Shown here: in pieces, positions 2,391-47,681 of the stretch
Numbering within the stretch: the first letter of the stretch is position 1
Layout of the letters: the number at the start of each line of letters is the position of its first letter
Assembly (NCBI GenBank): GCA_961205875.1
Contig: OY540814.1
Location: 8,290,993 to 8,354,992, forward strand
Length of the DNA: 64,000 nt
Reading direction: 5' to 3'
Source of the DNA: Sialis fuliginosa
Taxonomy: Eukaryota; Arthropoda; Insecta; Megaloptera; Sialidae
Made by a program: the position numbers and the translations under genes
The notes under the pieces: model-generated
The model's input: only the letters and a program-made list of their open reading frames with translations
Told to the model about the DNA's origin: nothing
Databases searched by the model: none

Positions 2391-4287
2391 GTCAGTGTTT
2401 ATAAATTTACATTAATTTAAAACAATAACTGATTTATGTTACGTAGGTATATTAGTGCAAGGTACTTTTCGTAAAATTTTAAGAGAGCTTATTCAAACAG
2501 AAACATATCCATTTTCAGTTAAATAATATTAAGTATACTGGTCTATAACTAAATAAAAACGACCAAGTTCTATAGTAATTTTCACTCAGATTATATATAT
2601 AATATAAAAGACTTGTTTCAAAATTTTGCTATTTTTGCTACAGTGTTCGTTATAGTTTTCATTGAAAGTACTAATTAAAAGCTACGTTCTGGAATTTTTT
2701 GATTTTTTGAATTGATAGTTTAGAAATAAGAGGGGGGGGGGGAAGTTCTGATAACGACATTTAAAAGCTCATTTACCGTGACTGAAGAGTTAAAATCAAA
2801 AGATTAAATAACAGTTTTTGTTGTATTTTAGGAAACCTATCTAAAAACACCCCCACTCAATGGGGTAAGTGAAAAAAAATGAGTAGGTACACTTTTCAGT
2901 CTATGGGAGAGGGTCCAAAATTTGTTTAACAGTGTTCGTTATAATTTTCATTGAAAGTACTAATTAAAAGCTACGTTCTGATTTTTCTTCAGATTTTTTG
3001 AATCTATAGTTTAGAGATTAGATAACGACATTTAAAAGCAAATATATCGTGACTGAATGGTTAAAATCAAAAGGAAAATATCTATATAATTTAGAGTAGA
3101 AGTTTTAACTAATACAAACTAACTGATACAATTAAAATTTTTTATAACATTACGAGCATCTAAATTAAAAAATTAAAACTAAGTATAGCGATTTAAATAA
3201 AAATAATTTTCACAATCATATTCGTATAATGTATAATTAATACCCATAAATATTTTATTTTATTATATTTTTTAACGAAGTTAAACTAATTATAATTATT
3301 ATAATTACTGATTATATACAAAATCTTTGCCAACTTTATGTTAGAAATAATATTTACAAGAAGTATCTAATTATGTTATATAACACACATCAATTATAAG
3401 TAAAACAAATTATTAAGGGTTTCATACAACAATAACTAAATCTTATCTTTATTAATAACTAGCTGGGCCCACGCGGCTTCGCTCGCGTAGACTACGGAAT
3501 TATTGTTTAGGATTTTTGAAAAATATAGTTTAAATAATTAAGTACAAACACGATTAGTTATTATTGTAATAATAATTTATCAATACCTAAATTACCTAAC
3601 AAAAACGAATCAGAAGAAAAAAGTACAAATAATTTGTGTTCTGTTTAAATTTAAATGTTAATTATTGAAAACAAAATAAACACAAACGATCAGCCGAGGG
3701 ACTCCGAATAACAACCGAGCGTACGCGAATCCAGTCTGATGTACTTGCTTCGATGCGGCACGACACCATACATTTAAGATATTATCTTTATAAATATATT
3801 TTAAGATATTTTCTAAACTATACGACCAAATTGGATGCTGTAAATGGCAAACTATATCTACATTAAGTACTTATGACGATGAAATCATTTATTTCGATAT
3901 GGATTAATGTTTTGCAGGTCATAAGTCCATGTAAACAAAACCCAAATATTTTATGTTTTCTTTGTAACATAAAAGCAGTCATTGTGGCTAAAATATAAAA
4001 GTTAGACATATGGTGTCGCGGACTTAATTGAAGAACTTTTGATTCTACACAATTCTTTATTACATTATTTTGTTCTATATTGAACGGTTTAGGCAGCGTA
4101 TTACAAAACAGCGCGCCGACGGCAAAATTTTTTCCGACTTGATTTACTATTATCGTCACTGCTTTGTTGTTATGTTACCTAACGTAAAAAAATATAGCCT
4201 ATAACCTGGCCAGAGAACGTACCTATGAATTAAAAAAAAAAACTCGTAAATCGGATAAGTGGTTCTCGAGTGATAAGGTAACTAACG

Positions 4288-4321
<34 letters not shown>

Positions 4322-4363
4322 GAGACGTTGAGCTTCCTTAATATATATAAAGCTCAACGTCTC

Positions 4364-4413
<50 letters not shown>

Positions 4414-5271
4414 CGTTAGTTACCTTATCACTCGAGAACCACTTATCCGATTGACGTGTTTTTTTTTTTAATTCATAGGTACGTTCTCTGGCCAGGTTAT
4501 AGGCTATATTTTTTTAGGTTAGATAACATAACAACTAAGCAGTGACAATAATAGTAAATCAAGTCGGAAAAATTTTTGCCGTCGGCGCGCTGTTTTGTAA
4601 TACGCTGCCTAAACCGTTCAATATAGAACAAAATAATGTAATAAAGAATTGTGTAGAATCAAAAGTTCTTCAATTAAGTCCGCGACACCATATGTCTAAC
4701 TTTTATATTTTAGCCACAATGACTGCTTTTATGTTACAAAAAAAACATAAAATATTTGGGTTCTGTTTACATGGACTTATGACCTGCAAAACATTAATCC
4801 ATATCGAAATAAATGATTTCATCGTCATAAGCACTTAATGTAGATATAGTTTGCCCTTTACAGCATCCAATTTGGTCGTATAGTTTAGAAAATATCTTAA
4901 AATATATTTATAAAGGTAACATCTTAAATGTATGGTGTCGTGCCGCATCGAAGCGAGTACATCAGACTGGATTCGCGTACGCTCGGTAGATATTCGGAGT
5001 CCCTCGGCTGATCGTTTGTGTTTATTTTGTTTTCAATAATTAACATTTAAATTTAAACAGAACACAAATTATTTGTACTTTTTTCTTCTGATTCGTTTTT
5101 GTTAGGTAATTTAGGTATTGATAAATTATTATTACAATAATAACTAATCGTGTTTGTACTTAATTAATTAAACTATATTTTTCAAAAATCCTAAACAATA
5201 ATTCCGTAGTCTACGCGAGCGAAGCCGCGTGGGCCCAGCTAGTCCTTAATATATATAAAGCTCAACGTCTC

Positions 5272-5321
<50 letters not shown>

Positions 5322-6998
5322 CGTTAGTTACCTTATCACTCGAGAACCACTTATCCGATTGACGTGTTTTTTTTTTTTAATTCATAGGTACGTTCTCTGG
5401 CCAGGTTATAGGCTATATTTTTTTAGGTTAGATAACATAACAACTAAGCAGTGACAATAATAGTAAATCAAGTCGGAAAAATTTTTGCCGTCGGCGCGCT
5501 GTTTTGTAATACGCTGCCTAAACCGTTCAATATAGAACAAAATAATGTAATAAAGAATTGTGTAGAATCAAAAGTTCTTCAATTAAGTCCGCGACACCAT
5601 ATGTCTAACTTTTATATTTTAGCCACAATAACTGCTTTTATGTTACAAAAAAAACATAAAATATTTGGGTTCTGTTTACATGGACTTATGACCTGCAAAA
5701 CATTAATCCATATCGAAATAAATGATTTCATCGTCATAAGCACTTAATGTAGATATAGTTTGCCCTTTACAGCATCCAATTTGGTCGTATAGTTTAGAAA
5801 ATATCTTAAAATATATTTATAAAGGTAACATCTTAAATGTATGGTGTCGTGCCGCATCGAAGCGATGTACATCAGACTGGATTCGTGTACGCTCGGTAGA
5901 TATTCGGAGTCCCTCGGCTGATCGTTTGTGTTTATTTTGTTTTCAATAATTAACATTTAAATTTAAACAGAACACAAATTATTTGTACTTTTTTCTTCTG
6001 ATTCGTTTTTGTTAGGTAATTTAGGTATTGATAAATTATTATTACAATAATAACTAATCGTGTTTGTACTTAATTAATTAAACTATATTTTTCAAAAATC
6101 CTAAACAATAATTCCGTAGTCTACGCGAGCGAAGCCGCGTGGGCCCAGCTAGTTATATATATTAAGGACTAGCTGGGCCCACGCGGCTTCGCTCGCGTAG
6201 ACTACGGAATTATTGTTTAGGATTTTTGAAAAATATAGTTTAATTAATTAAGTACAAACACGATTAGTTATTATTGTAATAATAATTTATCAATACCTAA
6301 ATTACCTAACAAAAACGAATCAGAAGAAAAAAGTACAAATAATTTGTGTTCTGTTTAAATTTAAATGTTAATTATTGAAAACAAAATTAACTCAAACGTC
6401 AGCCGAGGGACTCCGAATATCTACCGAACGTAAGCGAATCCAGTCTGATGTACATCGCTTCGATGCGGCACGACACCATACATTTAAAATGTTACCTTTA
6501 TAAATATATTTTAAGATATTTTCTAAACTATACGACCAAATTGGATGCTGTAAATGGCAAACTATATCTACATTAAGTACTTATGACGATGAAATCATTT
6601 ATTTCGATAAGGATTAATGTTTTGCAGGTCATAAGTCCATGTAAACAAAACCCAAATATTTTATGTTTTTTTTGTAACATAAAAGCAGCCATTGTCGCTT
6701 AAATATAAAAGTTAGACATATCGTGTCGCTGACTTAATTGTAGAACTTTTGATTCTACACAATTCTTTAATACATTATTTTGTTCTATATTGAACGGTTT
6801 AGGCAGCGTATTACAAAACAGCGCGCCGACGGCAAAATTTTTTCCGACTTGATTTACTATTATCGTCACTGCTTTGTTGTTATGTTACCTAACGTAATAA
6901 AATATAGCCTATAACCTGGCCAGAGAACGTACCTATGAATTAAAAAAAAAAAACACGTAAATCGGATAAGTGGTTCTCGAGTGATAAGGTAACTAACG

Positions 6999-7040
<42 letters not shown>

Positions 7041-9696
7041 GAGACGTTGAGCTTTATATATATTAAGGATTATGATTACGTAAAAATTATAATTAGATTT
7101 TATTGAGTATATAGTGTACACCTACTCACATTTTTTTATTGTGTGTATTTACCAATTAATAGTATAAAAAATGTATGAGGTCTTGTGGCTAACTTGTAAA
7201 TTAGGCATGAACCTAAAGTTTTTCTTTATGTATTGTAGGCAGGTACTTGATAGCTTTCTACAAGTTATTAATGGAATTTTAACTGGTAAAGCTTACTTTT
7301 ATTTATTTAATTAATATTTGTAACATAATGGCACTGTTTTCTACAAAATATATTAATAGGTGCATAATATGTGTATAATACATATTTTATATACAGAATG
7401 TGTTTCCAAAAATCCATTACAGTTTATTTGATAAAATTTCAGACATATTTACATACATATCGTACATGCTTCAAGCATATTCTATGAAAAATTACATAAT
7501 AATTTTCTTTCGTGTTTTCTTAGTAGACATTATATTTACATATTTATAAAAGGAAGTAAATATTCCAAACATACTCATAGTTTAGATTAAAAATTTCAGT
7601 TTAATACCTCGATGTACTCGTATTTGAATTTGTGAATATAAACTTCCATAGTTTTATTATTAAAACAGCCATACCCCAAAGTTACGTCACCTTCACTTCC
7701 AGATGCCGAAAATTAAATACTGACGTTTTGTAATATAACTCCGTATTTAAAAATGTACATAAATGCGAAGCGACGTAAGTCAAAGAGCTATAACTCGGGG
7801 TATTATCATAACATAACGTATCTAATATTCTCAAGTAACAGTTAGGGACAATGCAGGGTTAACTAGCGCGCGAATCTTCATACATATTGGTTCACCTTAT
7901 AATATTTTGAATATATGTACTATAATGATTTTATAATGCTTTAAATTCCATTGTATTTTCAGAATTTTTTTATGATAATTCTTATTTTTTCTATTTTCAG
8001 TTGGCTTGGATGCAAATGGACTCTTTCATTGTCTTTCATTGCTTATATGCCGTTCATCTTGGCTCAATTCTATCCCAAGTTTTGGACAATGATCCCAGCG
8101 GGTTTAGCTGTAGGATTAGGGGGAGGCCCGTTGTGGTGTGCTAAATGCACGTACCTCTCAGTGATAGCTGAGGCTTACGCTAAAATCACAGGAGCCAACG
8201 CTGAAACGGTTGTCGTAAGATTCTTTGGAATCTTCTTTACTTTTTATCAGTTCGCACAAGTTTGGGGAAATTTGATTTCATCTGCTGGTTAGTATTTTAT
8301 TTCTTAGAATCGAATGGGCAATTTTATGTATATTTTTTATCGTTAATAATACTGATTTCATATAGAATTATTATATTGTATATTACTGCCTTTTTAAAAC
8401 GTGAGATTAATTAATATTTTATTTCTAGTTCTCTCTTACGGTACTGAAGTTATAAATATAACGGATTTCAATACAACAATGAAATACGAGAACATTGAAA
8501 ATATTTGTGGAGCTAACTTCTGTCCTGGAATCACCGTCGAAGATAATCCAAATCTTACACCGCCATCCGAATATAAAATCTATCTAATTTCCGCAATTTA
8601 TCTTGGATGTATGATAGTTGCAAGTCTGATTACAGCATTCGGTCTCGACTCTTTAACCAGGTACGTTATTTAACAAGGAAATATTAAGAATATGAAAATT
8701 AAACATTTGTTTTGTCTTTAGATACAGCCAAGGAAGATCAGGAAGTGGAACTGGATTATCAGGTTTCAAACTTCTTTCAGTAACTCTTGGCCATCTTCGT
8801 GAACCATATCAAATTTTGCTGTTGCCAATAACTATGTTCATAGGAATGGAACAGGCATTTATTGCTGCAGATTTTAGTGCTGTAAGTATTTATGCCCTTT
8901 TCAGTTAGTCTTTAAGCTTGCATAAGTCGACAGATAAATATAACTACATAATTCTATACTTTGGAAATAAAGGTTTTAAATTATCAATTTATGTTTTATT
9001 GTATTTTTCAGTCGTTTGTGTCTTGTGGATGGGGAATAAGTCATATTGGATATGTTATGATTTGTTTTGGCGTATCCAATGCTCTTGCAGCAGCTGCTGC
9101 TGGAGGAATTGCAAAAGGATCAGCAGGATCTCGACGTGGACCTCTAATATTGTTTGCTACAATACTGCATTCTGCTCTTCTGTTGGCTTTATTGTTATGG
9201 AAACCTACACCAGACAAACCTGAATTGTTCTTCCTTGTTGCTGCATTGTGGGGTGCTTCAGATGCTGTATGGCTTGTTCAGATAAATGGTAAGTGAAGTA
9301 GATAAAAAATCGTTTATGAACATTTTGTTTAAAAAATAGATTAATATAAATTAATATAATGTAACTTATTGAAAAGTACATATCATATTTTTTATTGTTC
9401 CAGCATTGTGTGGTATTTTATTCCCTGGCCGTGAAGAAGCAGCTTACAGTAATTTCCGATTGTGGGAATCGACAGGATCAGTGATTGCTTATTCATATAG
9501 CTCATATATATGTACTTCGATTAAACTTTATCTGCTCATGGGACTTATGTTGATTGGAGTTGCGGGATTTACAGGTATCGAGTATATGGAACATCGTGTG
9601 AAACCAGAACCAGCAATAACTAGCGGAGATTTTCATCTTGTTTCAACAGGGACAGAAGAGAAGAAGAATTTAAATACTTATACTATTGGCGAATGA
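2101..9696 (+). CDS. UNC93-like membrane protein, six coding exons, complete
   Basis: Coding exons are 2101-2390, 8001-8287, 8429-8660, 8722-8881, 9012-9288 and 9404-9696. All introns are GT-AG and the phases agree at every junction, giving 512 residues and a TGA stop. The protein is a polytopic MFS-fold member of the UNC-93 family. Typical stretches are KNVMVLGFAFMIHFTAFHGT and NLQSSIN in the first membrane region, GLAVGLGGGPLWCAKCTYLS mid-protein, and a conserved FPGREEAAYSNFRLWESTGS near the C-terminus. The N-terminus is short and hydrophilic, and about a dozen hydrophobic segments follow. C. elegans UNC-93 is a regulatory subunit of the SUP-9 two-pore K+ channel; the substrate or partner of insect UNC93A-type proteins is not evident from sequence. 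The start is favoured by an in-frame TAA at 2077-2079 and the context AAAC-ATG-G. Downstream poly(A) candidates are ATTAAA at 9813 and AATAAA at 10633. Confidence 0.93.
2640..3080 (+). repeat. Direct repeat of about 170 bp, two copies
   Basis: CAGTGTTCGTTATAGTTTTC with the following ~165 bp (to about 2815) recurs at about 2930-3080. The second copy lacks the G-run and has many small differences. About 115 bp separate the copies. It looks like a local duplication or two tandem relics of one element. Confidence 0.75.
3459..4334 (-). mobile_element. Helitron-like copy A (minus), split 5' end
   Basis: Read on the minus strand, the element ends CCCAGCTAG just before a T, as Helitrons do. It has a short ACGCG...CGCGT hairpin about 10 nt upstream of the CTAG. 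Toward its 5' end lies a (GTCT)n tract followed by GACGTTGAGCT. The terminal 16 bases of the 5' end are missing here and sit instead at 6153-6168, beyond the inserted copies B and C. It shares copy-specific variants with copy D (for example TTACCTAACGT near 4176). There is no Rep/helicase coding capacity, so it is non-autonomous. Confidence 0.85.
4335..5242 (+). mobile_element. Helitron-like copy B (plus)
   Basis: It begins TCCTTAATATATATAAAGCT, continues through a (GTCT)n microsatellite and CCGTTAGTTACCTTATCACT, and ends GGGCCCAGCTAG with the 3' hairpin. Its CTAG (5239-5242) directly abuts the TCC start of copy C, with no base between. It shares variants with C against A and D (for example AAGCACTTAATG and TTAGATAACATAACAACTAAG). 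Confidence 0.9.
5243..6152 (+). mobile_element. Helitron-like copy C (plus)
   Basis: It is nearly identical to copy B and in the same orientation, with complete TC start and CTAG end. It is followed directly by the 16-base terminal remnant of copy A (6153-6168). B and C together form a head-to-tail dimer inserted into copy A. Confidence 0.9.
6153..6168 (-). repeat. Displaced 5' terminus of Helitron-like copy A
   Basis: These 16 bases (TTATATATATTAAGGA) are the reverse complement of the family's 5' end. Placed after 4334 they complete copy A exactly as seen at the intact end of copy D (7054-7069). They directly abut the CTAG end of copy D at 6169. Confidence 0.85.
6169..7069 (-). mobile_element. 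Helitron-like copy D (minus)
   Basis: This is a full-length minus-strand copy: the CTAG end is at 6169-6172 and the 5' TCC end at 7067-7069. The base beyond each outer end of the A+D unit is A on the left (3458) and T on the right (7070). On the element's own strand that is A before TC and T after CTAG, the canonical Helitron A/T target. D shares subfamily variants with A, not with B or C. Confidence 0.88.
7070..7950. other. AT-rich intronic DNA
   Basis: Apart from the weak inverted repeat around 7672-7845, nothing is recognisable. It lies inside intron 1 of the UNC93-like gene. Confidence 0.5.
8001..8287 (+). CDS. UNC93-like exon 2
   Basis: The exon begins WLGCKWTLSL after the split serine codon. 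It carries the glycine-rich AVGLGGGPLWCAKC segment and the FFGIFFTFYQFAQVWGNLIS membrane segment. The donor is GTTAGT and the phase at the end is 1. Confidence 0.92.
8429..8660 (+). CDS. UNC93-like exon 3
   Basis: This exon encodes an extracellular-type loop with the two cysteines of CGANFCPG and potential N-glycosylation sites (NIT, NTT). A membrane segment follows (IYLISAIYLGCMIVASLITA). The donor is GTACGT and the phase at the end is 2. Confidence 0.92.
8722..8881 (+). CDS. UNC93-like exon 4
   Basis: It encodes RYSQGRSGSGTGLSG, a charged cytosolic loop, and the LLLPITMFIGMEQAFIAADF segment typical of the family. It ends in phase 0 at donor GTAAGT. Confidence 0.92.
9012..9288 (+). CDS. UNC93-like exon 5
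   Basis: It encodes SFVSCGWGISHIGYVMICFG and two more hydrophobic segments, ending ALWGASDAVWLVQIN. The donor is GTAAGT and the phase is 1. A different overlapping frame is also open here but has no family similarity. Confidence 0.92.
9404..9696 (+). CDS. UNC93-like terminal coding exon
   Basis: It encodes the conserved LCGILFPGREEAAYSNFRL, the last two membrane segments, and a hydrophilic tail ending NLNTYTIGE before TGA at 9694-9696. Confidence 0.92.
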
Positions 9697-12328: not shown

Positions 12329-15300
12329 CTGAATATAAAAAATTAATTAATTTCTTTGTTAACACAATTTACTCAGCAATCAGAAAAAGTTTCTTTAAAA
12401 TTCCATAACTTAAATGTCTCGGAAATCACCCCGAATTAGACATTTACCAAGGTATATAAAGACAAGGTAGTCTCATCAGCTCTTTGACCAATCAGCGTTG
12501 GCGCAAGAATTGATGTCACCACGAAGACATATTCAAATGTTAGAAATGTATATAATAGAATATACAATAATAGATTCACGACAAAATAATATATAATATG
12601 TATGAATTGCTAATATTTATTATGATTTTATGATAATGATTTAATTTAAATATGAATTATGATTTTATAAATAAAATGTAAATGTATCATTCAAGATTTA
12701 TTAATGTTGAAAAAGAGATCTTGCAAATTTAATGATGAATTACAGAAACAATTTAGTTTCATTAAAAAAAACTTAACATTTCATATTAAAATTTTATAGA
12801 TATGATATGAGCTGTGTGGGTTTATAAATTAGTGGATAACAAAATTACTATAAACTCAATATTTTATTATTTATAAAATAAAATTTTTGTTACGTCAAAG
12901 CGGTGTGAATAAGTGGTACTGCCGCCAACCATACTACCAACTTTCCATCTCAGTTTCTTACTTGCATTGCGAGTAAGAACGTATTAACAATTGCCAGCTA
13001 AGACGAATGATTGTTAGTATGGTTGGTAGCAGTGAAACCAGAATTTTATTAATGAATAAGAATTGTTATTATAATTACCTGAAGGATGAGTGTTCCTTTC
13101 AAAATGAGCATTGAGCAACTCGAGAGCCTGCGGAGTGAATGAAGTACGTCTTTTCCGTTTCTTTGAAGGTTCAACACCTATGAAATCTGTTAGATGATTT
13201 TGTCCACTTTTGTATCTGGAACAGAGAGCACTTCTTTACTTCATTATGAGAAATACAGTATTATGTGTAGTAAATATGTTTATACATATACAAATAACCA
13301 TGTGCAAAAAAATATTTAAATGTATATAAAGTAAAATACCAAATACTAACCTTTCTTCAGCTTCTTTCATCCATCGTTCTAAAACTGGTTTAATTTTTTG
13401 TGCACTTTTTGGTGTGATATCCAATTTTTCAAACCTAAAAACATGAATTTTTAATGAGTACATATAACATTCAAAAATGTTTTTTTTTTTATAATAAAGA
13501 AAAAAGGGAGCACTAAAATTTTAATAAAGTTTATGATCGAAGCACAGGACATTGTCATTAGTAATCAACGATAGCAATATGAATAATATTTCAATTGTTA
13601 TATTTGTATTAATTACAATATGATAATATAAATTTAAAAAAATTTAATTATTCATGCCAATGCCCTGGCTTTGTTAATACTAAATGTGCTCCTCAATAAT
13701 TACAAGAAAGTGTTAGTAGAAGTGAAATAATAATATAAAAAAATGCAACGTACATTGCCTGTTGATGGGAGGTCAACTGCGCAGCACAGTACATCTGGGT
13801 AGCCAGGGCACTGGGGACAGAGTTTATAAATTATTAGAGGTTACGAACATACCTCGGTAGATCCAATGTCCTGGCGTAGATAAATAATGGTTTGGGAATG
13901 TCGAATACGTCAGGAGCATTTATTTTTTATATGTTCAAATAAAATTAAATCATTCTTAATATTATATACAATTATGCAATAAAATAAATAAATTGGACAT
14001 TATAACTTATATTATAAAAATGTACTAATAATTAAAATACTTATTTACAATTTACTAATTAAAAAAATCACATGCATTTTATAAATTTATTGAAATATTA
14101 TAATTGGAATAAATATAATATATAATATAGAATACATACCTACAAATGGCACTTTGACTGTAAGCTGGACCTTCAGTAATACTAAGGGCTTGTCCTACTT
14201 GAGTTTGTGTCAATCCTAAAGAAAGACGTCGTAATTTAAAAGCTTTAGCAAATTCTTTAATTTCGTCCAAGTTGATTCCGTCAACTACGTTACTGTTTGT
14301 TTGATTGATAGTTGGTTGATCTGTAAATAAGAAAAAGAAAAGTGTTTTTATATATTAAAAAAAATATATATATTACTGATGTAAATTGTTATTTGTTATT
14401 AATATTAGGGTGCGATATAATTTAAGACCTAACGATGGCTGATAGACATTAAGTAAAATATTATTAAGATTCAGTTTGTTTTGTCCAATTTGTTTGATAA
14501 AGTTAGTTTATATAAAAAATTAAGGACTGTTAAAAATATGAAACAAATACAGTAGAGCAGCGGTTCTTAAACTTATGTGGTCTAGGGACCCACTTTTGAA
14601 CAATTATTTATCAGGGACTCCCTCTGACAGAAAAACAAAGAAGGTCGTCAGATACTAATTAATCATTGGTAAATAGAAATGTAAAAGTACTTTAATTTAT
14701 GCCAAACATGTTTAAAGGATCCCCGGCAAATGTTCCGCGTACCCTAGTTTAAGAATATCTGCAGTAGAGCATCAACCACACAAAAAAAAGTTTCAAGTAC
14801 CAAAAAATATAGCATTGTAGTATTGGTCAAGCATAGTCAAAATCAAAATTTTTGAAATTTTCTGTTTACCAGTTTTTTTTATTTGAGTTTGAATTTTGGG
14901 TTTAGGTTGAATTTTTCCAAGTTGGTTAAACATCTAAAATCGTTTTTTTCATCTGTAAATTGGATTTTGTTATAGCTTTTACGTTCAAAAAGATTTTCCG
15001 AGTTTCGGTTATGAAAAAAAATTTTTTTGCAAAAGTTATAAACAATAAAATTATAATGTAAACATGATCAACATTTTTTTTGACTACCAACAAAATCCCT
15101 AGTTTCTAAGAATGAAATATCAGCACTTGGTTTTAAGGTAAGCAAATTGGTTATTCGAAAAATCAGTTATCAATGCTCTACACTCTACTGTATAATCATA
15201 TGGATAATTTGTAAAATAAAATCTTACTTGGTGAATCTACTAATAAATCCATAGTCGAATTATCAGTTCCAGTCGGAGATGATTGCGGTGAAGGTTTTCC

Positions 15301-19342: not shown

Positions 19343-19722
19343 TCTATATACATATATTATAAAACGCAACGTTTCTCCGTCTGTCTGTCCGTTAGTGCGC
19401 TTATCACTCGAGAACCACTTATCCGATTAAAGTGTTTTTTTTTTTTAATTTAAAGATATGTTCTTTGCCCAGATTTTAGTATTTATTTGGATAGGTTAGG
19501 TAACATAAGAAGCAGTGACGATAATAGTAAATAAGTCGGAACAAAGTTTACCGCTAGCGCGTTTTTTTGCAATACGCTGCCTAAACCATTATATATAATG
19601 TAGTAAATATAATAATAAAGTATACAATACAACGTAGTAATGAATTGTGTAGATTTAAAAAAATTCAACTATATTTTTCAAAAATCCGTAGTCCACGCTA
19701 GCGAAACTGCGGACACAGCTAA
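19343..19722 (+). mobile_element. Short decayed Helitron-like copy E
   Basis: It starts TCTATATACATATATTATAA after an A and ends ACACAGCTAA before a T. Inside are the family's CTCGAGAACCACTTATCCGA and the CAATACGCTGCCTAAACCAT segment. It is much diverged from and shorter than copies A-D. It lies in the pdm3 intron between 19063 and 20140. Confidence 0.75.
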
Positions 19723-33941: not shown

Positions 33942-34743
33942 TCCTTAATATAAATAAAATTCAACATCTTTCTGTCTGTCTATCCGTTTGTGTGCTTATA
34001 ACTCGAGAACCACTTATCCGATTTACATGTTTTTTTTTTCATAGATATGTTCTCTGGCCAAGTTATAGGATATATATAGATTATAGGATATATTATATTA
34101 CGTTAGGTAACATAAGGAATAAGCAGTGACGATAATAGTAAAATAAGTCAGAAAAAGTTTGCCGCCAGCGTGCTCTTTTGCAATACGCTGCCTAAACTGT
34201 TAAATATTGAACAATATAATGTAGTAAAGAACTGTATAGAATAAAAAGATCTATCTTATATCTAACTTTTATATTTAAGCCAAAATGATTGCTTTTATGT
34301 TACAAAGAAAATTAAAAATGTTTGGGTTCTGTTTACGTGGGCTTATGACCTACAAAACAGTAATCCTTATCGAAATAAATGATTGTCGTCATAAGTACTT
34401 AATGTAGATATAATTTGCTCTTTACAGCATCCAATTTGGTCGTATAGTTTAAGAAATAACTTTAAATAAGTTATATACGGTAAAATATTATTAATATAAC
34501 GCATGACACTAAAGATGTGCCGCGTTGCAGAAGGTCGTTGCTTTTTGATCTTCAATTGTTTATCTTGTTTTCAATAATTAACTTCTAAATTTAAAGAGAA
34601 CAAAAATTATTTGTACTTTTTGTTCTGATTCGTTTTTGTTATGTAATTTAGGCGTTGATTAGTTACTAAATATTACAATAATAACTAATCGTGTTTGTAC
34701 TTAATTAAACTATATTAAAAAAAAAATCCTAAAAAATAATTCA
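33942..34743 (+). mobile_element. Helitron-like copy F, 3' truncated
   Basis: After an A it starts TCCTTAATATAAATAAAATT and follows the family through CTCGAGAACCACTTATCCGA, CAATACGCTGCCTAAACTGT and the TAACTAATCGTGTTTGTACT segment. The terminal hairpin and CTAG are lost. Instead it runs into an AT-only palindrome at about 34745-34800. The internal frame seen in copies A-C is broken. Confidence 0.75.
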
Positions 34744-35039
34744 AGATATAATTATAAATTAAATATAATATATTATATTTATAATTATAAATTAAAAATT
34801 ATATTTAGTTAAATGTATTGGTTAGGTTCTGTTGGTAATACGATACAAAATTTAAATGCAGATCTAAACTATAAATGATATTTAGTTAAAATTGGTAATA
34901 CCGGGCGTCATATTAATTGATTTTATGTAACCAAAAATCTTTAAAAAAATATTATATATGGTTTATAAAAACCCAAAGCGTTTATCATTAAACAAGTGCA
35001 TGATTAAAACAAAAACTTCAAGTTCCGAACACTACCCCA

Positions 35040-47035: not shown

Positions 47036-47681
47036 TCCTTAATATATATAAAGCTCAACGTCACTCTGTCTGTCTGTCTGTCCGTTAGTGTGCTTATCAC
47101 TCGAAAACCACTTATCCGATTTACGTGTTTTTTTTTAAATTCATAGGTACATTCTCTGGCCAGGTTATAGGCTATATTTTGTTACGTTAGATAACATAAC
47201 AACTAAACCGTTCAATATTGAACAAAATAATGTATTAAAGAATTGTGTAAAATCAAAAGATCTACAATAGAGTCAGCGACACTATATGTCTAACTTTTAT
47301 ATTTAAGTCACAATGACTGCTTTTATGTTACAAAGAAAATTTAAAATATTTGGGTTTTGTTTACGTGACCTGCAAAACATTAATCCTTATCGAAATAAAT
47401 GATTTCATCGTCATAAGTACTTAATGTAGACATAACGTGAAATATACATACAATAACATATTATTCGCGGCAATTCGCGCGAACTTTGATGAAGTGTCGC
47501 GGGGAGAGGGAAGATTTGTAATTTTAGTTCTGATTTGTTTTTTTTTAGGTACGTTAGGTTTTGATTAGTTATTATTACGATAATAATTAATCGTGTTTGT
47601 ACTTAATTCAACTATATTTTTCAAAAATCCTAAACAATAATTCCGTAATCCAAGCGGGCGAAGCCGTGCGGGCCCAGCTAG
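47036..47681 (+). mobile_element. Helitron-like copy G, both ends intact
   Basis: A precedes TCCTTAATATATATAAAGCT and T follows GGGCCCAGCTAG (47670-47681). The body is diverged and about 260 bp shorter than copies B/C. The (GTCT) tract has only a few units. It shows the family also sits singly elsewhere in the window. Confidence 0.85.

Follow-up and report, generated by a model that had tools for sequence, protein, structure and literature searches.

Probable preferential insertion of a Helitron family into the 5' ends of its own resident copies in Sialis fuliginosa

Hel-2, a non-autonomous lepidopteran Helitron, begins with 5'-TCC, ends with CTAG-3', is flanked by A and T, and carries a 3' stem-loop and a variable (CTGT)n array near its 5' end (PMC4344730). 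Pritham and Feschotte (2007, as cited in PMC2267711 and PMC5876387) ascribed the tandem Helitrons of bats to rolling-circle replication, and tandem arrays with perfect head-to-tail junctions are cited as support for rolling-circle transposition (PMC5876387). In maize AF466202, unlike Helitrons lie adjacent and head-to-tail with a CTAG/TC junction, and insertion at the A^T formed by the host A and the element's own T is one of two models given for this pair (PMC2267711). Self-insertion has been described in Fusarium, where a three-copy tandem is attributed either to two 5'-end insertions or to a rolling-circle product (PMC5148889), and maize Helitrons are cited as preferring sites near or inside other Helitrons (PMC3288121). 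In vitro, purified Helraiser transposase cleaves the 5' end at TC in the top strand and at an internal AT in the bottom strand; of 1,751 Helraiser insertions, 46 lay at dinucleotides other than AT, TT being one of the most frequent of these (PMC4778049). Further Helitron literature includes PMC6544945, PMC13286980, PMC6927752, PMC4067079, and PMC4038834.

Here we describe a Helitron family found in a 64,000-nt window of Sialis fuliginosa DNA (the whole stretch analysed), which belongs to contig C6 of a 392-Mb assembly in 20 contigs. Copies of this family start with TCC, end with CTAG, and carry a (GTCT)n array just inside a 5' end that also contains a short AT palindrome. Both the TCC start and the CTAG end are present in copies A-E of the window and in 47 of the 51 aligned copies overall, the exceptions being copy F of the window, L041, L045, and L031up. 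An 11-pair hairpin that stops 8 nt short of the 3' end is predicted in B and C, with a stability no better than that of shuffled sequences (z -0.72), and the predicted fold of copy E lacks it. Comparison of the initial 120 nt of C with its final 150 nt gave inverted matches of at most 7 nt. The copies hold no long open frame, the longest stop-to-stop stretch being 103 codons.

In all, 64 loci were fetched, some of them overlapping. We counted as ordinary sites those of 29 of these loci together with copy E and the outer site of the window cluster, leaving aside the window copies, any locus with a tandem, nested, truncated, or 5'-duplicated arrangement, and the whole L046-L064 series. These 31 sites comprise 30 A^T, 1 G^T, and no T^T. 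The first search covered 30 loci, of which 26 have A^T; the rest are B (T^T), C (which follows B), the truncated L005, and L029, which has G^T on the element strand. The first-pass annotation of this DNA had called the copies Helitron-like, and the 5'-TC and 3'-CTRR ends and the A^T sites bear this out; judged by its TCC/CTAG ends and A^T sites, the family is a non-autonomous Helitron of the canonical type. Assignment to the Helentrons or HINEs was rejected, since subterminal inverted repeats of at least 11 bp are absent (as measured in C) and none of the ordinary sites is T^T. The likeness to Hel-2 in TCC/CTAG ends, A/T flanks, and an array near the 5' end is one of description; Hel-2 is also described as having a 5' inverted repeat and subterminal inverted repeats, the latter not found in C (PMC4344730). 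The A^T target and an AT-rich 3' flank are shared with Helraiser (PMC4778049).

Three further copies in the window, all on the plus strand, served as outgroups. Copy E (47036..47681) is a single copy of 646 bp in A^T flanks, copy F (33942..34770, end approximate) is older (about 77% to A), with an A at its 5' flank and a degenerate 3' end, and copy G (19371..19690, ends approximate) is short and decayed. Elsewhere, L013, L017, L024, L041, and L045 carry a short 5' duplication, TCCTTAA/TCCTTAAT or TCCTTAA/TAATATAT, and these are perhaps repeated 5' tips. Viral contigs gave no matches to two patterns. As to the surroundings, stop-free plus-strand stretches at 7945-8292 and 9373-9696 match UNC-93 weakly, with E-values of 0.0079 and 0.0013 that fall short of the Pfam cut-off; the Helitron cluster lies just upstream of them and may be intronic in that gene. 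Two stop-free minus-strand stretches, at 13236-13520 and 14079-14354, jointly span a POU domain.

The cluster occupies 3459..7069. Copy A, the resident and A-type, lies on the minus strand at 3459..4334, and the 16 nt at its 5' extremity (on the element strand TCCTTAATATATATAA) are displaced to 6153..6168, also on the minus strand. Between these two parts lies a tandem pair of plus-strand B-type copies, B upstream (4335..5242) and C downstream (5243..6152), joined as CTAG/TCC. Copy D (6169..7069, minus strand), whose type also occurs on other contigs, is joined to A by the same CTAG/TCC junction. With its tip restored A measures 892 bp, and B, C, and D measure 908, 910, and 901 bp; all four start with TCCTTAATATATATAA and end with GGGCCCAGCTAG. 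This agrees with the first-pass annotation, which had reported four near-identical copies, the outer two on the minus and the inner two on the plus strand, two CTAG/TCC junctions (B to C, and D to the tip of A) with no intervening base, and the missing 16 bases of A at 6153-6168, the last of which proved an exact match.

The 5' junction of the inner insertion (4334..4335) reads GACGTTGAGCT^TCCTTAAT and falls 16 nt inside the 5' end of A, and its 3' junction (6152..6153) reads CAGCTAG^TTATATATATTAAGGA. The inner pair stands between GAGCT and TTATATATATTAAGGA, that is, at T^T and not at the usual A^T. No target-site duplication is present at this insertion, where the uninterrupted sequence is known from D. 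Excising B and C (4335-6152) restores A base for base, with D at its 5' end, and the annotation's claim of a nested insertion, with the second event in the terminus of a resident copy, is upheld. The outer flanks are canonical: on the element strand the 3' junction (3458..3459) has a host T and the 5' junction (7069..7070) a host A, giving ...AATCATAA^TTATTAAT..., an A^T site. What remains without B and C had been described as an A-D dimer in such flanks; the head-to-tail arrangement and the A^T site stand, and a single-template dimer does not, since the two copies come from different templates (see below).

The tip of A is still in its original orientation, which indicates that the nesting arose by insertion and not by simple inversion; inversion of a tandem array would have flipped the tip, and this origin was rejected. 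Inversion more generally, template switching, or an assembly error behind the palindromes can hardly be credited. The two long palindromes are a classic trouble spot, but the orientation of the tip is impossible by simple inversion, all breaks fall at exact element ends save for the cut inside A, and L047 repeats the layout with other copies, with L048 showing a simpler one. An assembly error at 3.4-7.1 kb appears unlikely given that L047, on contig C3, repeats this layout around one inner copy. Integration of a circle via homologous crossover was also rejected, as it predicts a direct order of copies and the cluster shows an inverted one.

B and C differ by 2 substitutions in 908 positions and by 2 single-base indels, and the other pairs by 17/892 (A-B), 22/891 (A-D), and 23/899 (B-D). 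Nine substitution columns split A and D from B and C, and none splits A and B from C and D; two indel columns, each of a single base, show the latter split. When E, F, and G were included as outgroups, the topology (D,(A,(B,C))) came out best. Both the substitutions and this tree make B and C the closest of the four, as the annotation had proposed, and the AU test rejects the tree that it had set against its own reading, in which A groups with B and C with D (p 3e-5 and 1e-5). A sister relationship of A and D is disfavoured without being rejected (AU p 0.077 with all columns but the array, 0.094 with the well-aligned columns), as is a position of A outside D, B, and C (0.219 and 0.071, respectively). 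The variants said to set A and D against B and C do exist, at the nine columns, but they do not make A and D sisters. In seven of the nine, the state of A and D is that of the majority of outgroups (E, F, and three old copies with a base there) and is mostly ancestral; the exceptions, columns 238 and 465, could be shared derived states of A- and D-types. At these nine columns 40 or 41 of 41 B-type copies have the state of B and C. The likeness of B to C mainly reflects the general likeness among B-type copies.

In a tree of 51 copies, the B-type copies and C form one group (support 96.9/98), A stands apart and joins the B-type (88.9/84), and D pairs with L033dn (92/97). L033dn, on contig C4, differs from D by 0.56%, versus 2.47% between A and D. 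Of 14 columns at which D differs from A, B, and C, L033dn has the D state in 12, and these states occur in 0 or 1 of 41 B-type copies. The D-type states of L033dn place the differences between D and A before the entry of D into this locus. For this reason the divergence of B from C relative to that of A from D was rejected as a clock, the A-D difference being older than the insertion. Close relatives of each copy are found elsewhere. The 876-bp A query, from which the tip was left out, reaches its full bit score in at least six other places among the best 40 scored of 2,602 first-look candidates. B is matched with equal bit score and length by a copy on contig C7 (best 40 of 3,197) and has no substitutions against at least eight copies. 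The best other match of D is 100% (rounded) and the next 99%, on other contigs (best 40 of 2,274). The existence of near-identical or identical copies of A-type and D-type elsewhere indicates that the D/A pair is not a single template copied twice, and by sequence comparison A and D belong to two different young subfamilies and come from different templates. A and B agree over a run of 8 variable sites (permutation p 0.017), with comparable runs for A-C (0.047) and A-D (0.045). Gene conversion between the palindrome arms was rejected as the cause, as 5 of the 7 D-only states in that run also occur in L033dn, and conversion is needless there; a T indel common to C and D could derive from gene conversion.

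The first-pass annotation had read the cluster as two rolling-circle dimers formed by read-through at the 3' end, the second inserted in the first, and had pointed to other CTAG/TCC junctions in the genome as a check. We collected 14 perfect tandem junctions (CTAG/TCC; CTAGTCCTTAAT), the window's two included, from loci around the best A, B, and D matches and from the search for the inner site described below; they are a sample and not a census, and genome-wide denominators (tandem junctions, T-flanked copies, all 5' ends) are estimates. Such junctions do exist, and 10 of the 14 join copies of unlike subfamily or age. The unlike pairs are D/A in the window, L057, and L059, A/D in L058, a mixed type with A in L056, and D with a mixed type in L062; L031 and L032 each pair a B-type copy with one diverged by 11-13%, L033 pairs a B-type copy with a D-like one, and in L047, where 164 bp of the upstream partner were fetched, a young copy adjoins an old one (83%). 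Only four pairs are alike, and among them B/C alone has equal microsatellite lengths (49/49, against 45/21 in L034, 57/61 in L061, and 17/25 in L046). Where one partner is clearly old (L031, L032, and L047), it is downstream in all three cases, as predicted by insertion at the A^T of the resident's 5' tip. Most of the tandems examined probably arose by such insertion and not by run-on copying. A further junction is likely at C2:2480683/2481563, by coordinates alone, and is outside the 14.

Other arrangements were observed at several loci outside the 14. L060, a near case, has a parallel copy within the first bases of an 86% copy. In L035 and L064 a complete copy follows a 167- or 836-nt piece from the 5' part of another, whose remainder was not seen. 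This arrangement is familiar from composite Helitrons, and the two loci are read as composite elements that have a single 3' end but two 5' ends.

We consider it very improbable that both pairs in the window are read-through dimers. The perfect CTAG/TCC junctions speak for such an origin, as do the 2 substitutions and equal arrays of B and C (equal lengths being found in 7.8% of pairs among 41 B-type copies) and the need for just one T^T event if B/C entered as a unit. Against it, A and D belong to different subfamilies, most tandems are unlike, and three of the four like pairs have unequal arrays. As the product of a single template, the D/A dimer by skipped termination that had been proposed is refuted. 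C also departs from B in states that are rare among B-type copies: its G-to-A base at column 423 is found in 1 of 41 (L031up), and its extra T in GCGATGTAC is absent in 40 of 41 (the last was not scored) and present in D.

That B/C alone is a true dimer, entering in a single step, with D/A built by successive insertions, has in our judgment an even chance, and would fit the explanation that we prefer. The equal microsatellite lengths favour it, and so does the T^T site, since a lone B would again need a T before TCC. On the other side, C differs from B by states present in other copies, which suggests that C may stem from another template, and 10 of the 14 tandems require no dimer. A query with C found no match better than B and the C7 copy among the best 40 of 3,255 candidates.

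The D/A pair could also have moved as one unit, a two-part element mobilised by read-through, which we regard as improbable. The D/A order is common to the window, L057, and L059, and composite Helitrons have been reported in silkworm and maize (PMC3789558, PMC3288121). However, the arrays differ among the three loci (41, 49, and 37 in D; 33, 29, and 21 in A, in the same order), and the three D halves are 4-7 substitutions apart, no closer to each other than to D-types elsewhere.

The T^T site 16 nt inside the 5' end (+16) recurs in the genome. The pattern AGCT/TCCTTAATATATATAAAGCT has five genomic occurrences, one of which (L050) is outside any recognisable copy. A genome-wide search for antiparallel arrangements with GACGTTGAG-N(0-20)-TCCTTAATATATATAA gave 8 matches, and a control pattern gave none. 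The exact GACGTTGAGCT^ 5' junction is present in five of the eight (the window, L047, L048, L049, and L051). The other three (L053, L054, and L055) have an A before TCC; among these, only in L053 does the rest of the tip follow CTAG, and the resident of L054 is recognisable for about 29 bp. Both sides of the +16 site are seen in three of the five, the window, L047, and L048, each with an intact 16-nt tip behind CTAG. In L049 the 3' side agrees only in TTAT, the resident being barely recognisable, and no 3' side could be located for L051 within the sequence fetched. Residents at L047, L048, and L051 are 7-17% apart from each other and 10-15% from A, and the inner copies are D-type in L047, B-type in L048, and old in L049 (that of L051 was seen for 227 bp). 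With residents and inner copies differing in this way, the +16 cases are not one event that was copied. At L047 an old minus-strand copy is followed by a plus-strand inner copy, the tip, and a young minus-strand copy, the window layout thus recurring with one inner copy instead of two.

T^T insertions also occur outside copy ends, in L050 and, inside a copy, in L063, both in the context CT^TTATA, which suggests that a secondary target motif may contribute. In L063 (C1:27259600-27261470), one copy lies antiparallel within another at an internal T^T, ATTATCT^TTATAAAT. In L048, viewed together with L052, the inner copy contains, near position 611, roughly 1.5 kb of other sequence.

A simpler account would be that there is no self-targeting and that the AT-rich 5' end just fits the target motif. 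At ordinary sites the target consensus is A^T-N5-ATAA: 20 of 31 have ATAA at +7, as do 1.6% of the window's AT slots (p 1e-28). The start of the element itself fits this motif in register but for the last base, its +7 being ATAT, as is likewise the +7 of the +16 site, and the tandem slot of the window ranks in the top 1.4% of AT slots. In a weight model built on the 31 sites, the tandem slot is favoured about 24-fold over the mean slot and the +16 slot is disfavoured, at 0.07-fold. Even so, a motif-aware random model expects just 0.14 tandems and 0.0004 +16 insertions for 3,000 copies, or 1.5 and 0.005 for 10,000 copies, against five +16 insertions seen; the weight model is small and the copy number guessed, so that these expectations are orders of magnitude. 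We therefore hold motif fit by itself to be an unlikely explanation.

The reading that we prefer, with fair confidence and with strong support from the loci examined, is that copies of this family probably land preferentially in the 5' ends of resident copies. For the window, A would have inserted first, into a host A^T. D, of another subfamily and in the orientation of A, would have entered the A^T made of the host A and the first T of A, which would yield a perfect head-to-tail pair with no concatemer. B and C, of a third subfamily, would have entered antiparallel at the T^T that lies exactly 16 nt in from the 5' terminus of A, as one dimer or successively. D and B/C would both be later than A, in either order.

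A transposase supplied by a putative autonomous RepHel partner may bind resident 5' ends as it binds those of a donor, and we infer that it could nick them, the top-strand nick lying before TC and the bottom-strand nick at +16. A circle arriving there would then be joined at the nick, taking the orientation of whichever strand was nicked. A top-strand nick would give a parallel tandem and a bottom-strand nick an antiparallel nest, and both kinds of product are seen. More tentatively, and with somewhat less than even confidence, we propose that the resident 5' end may act as a docking site with two positions, a top-strand nick at the terminus and a bottom-strand nick 16 nt in, from which tandems and antiparallel nests would both arise by one end-directed reaction, with arrays by themselves being no proof of concatemers.

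The accounts of Fusarium and maize place Helitrons near, inside, or in the 5' ends of others, as here, but the portions of these accounts available to us mention no base-exact recurring site inside the 5' end (PMC5148889, PMC3288121). Maize AF466202 is a single pair, whereas the Sialis family offers a majority of unlike pairs, the older partner downstream wherever age is clear, and an antiparallel class in addition (PMC2267711). The bat tandems have perfect head-to-tail junctions like those described here, but in Sialis the partners are mostly of different subfamilies. The internal cut in the Helraiser 5' end is at AT, versus T^T here, and the portion of that report available to us describes no insertion of Helraiser into its own 5' end (PMC4778049). 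No report of a recurrent +16 site was recognised among the papers that the literature searches listed, as judged by titles and the openings of abstracts. As far as this search goes, insertion at the 5' end is known, the new details being a base-exact +16 site, a target motif longer than AT, and subfamily evidence from many pairs.

The 10 of 14 junctions between unlike copies mean that a perfect junction alone is no proof of read-through. The motif A^T-N5-ATAA suggests a target longer than the AT dinucleotide, and the recurring +16 site offers a concrete prediction of the positions at which the transposase acts on its own 5' end. If true, end-directed insertion would account for the clusters and palindromes of this family.
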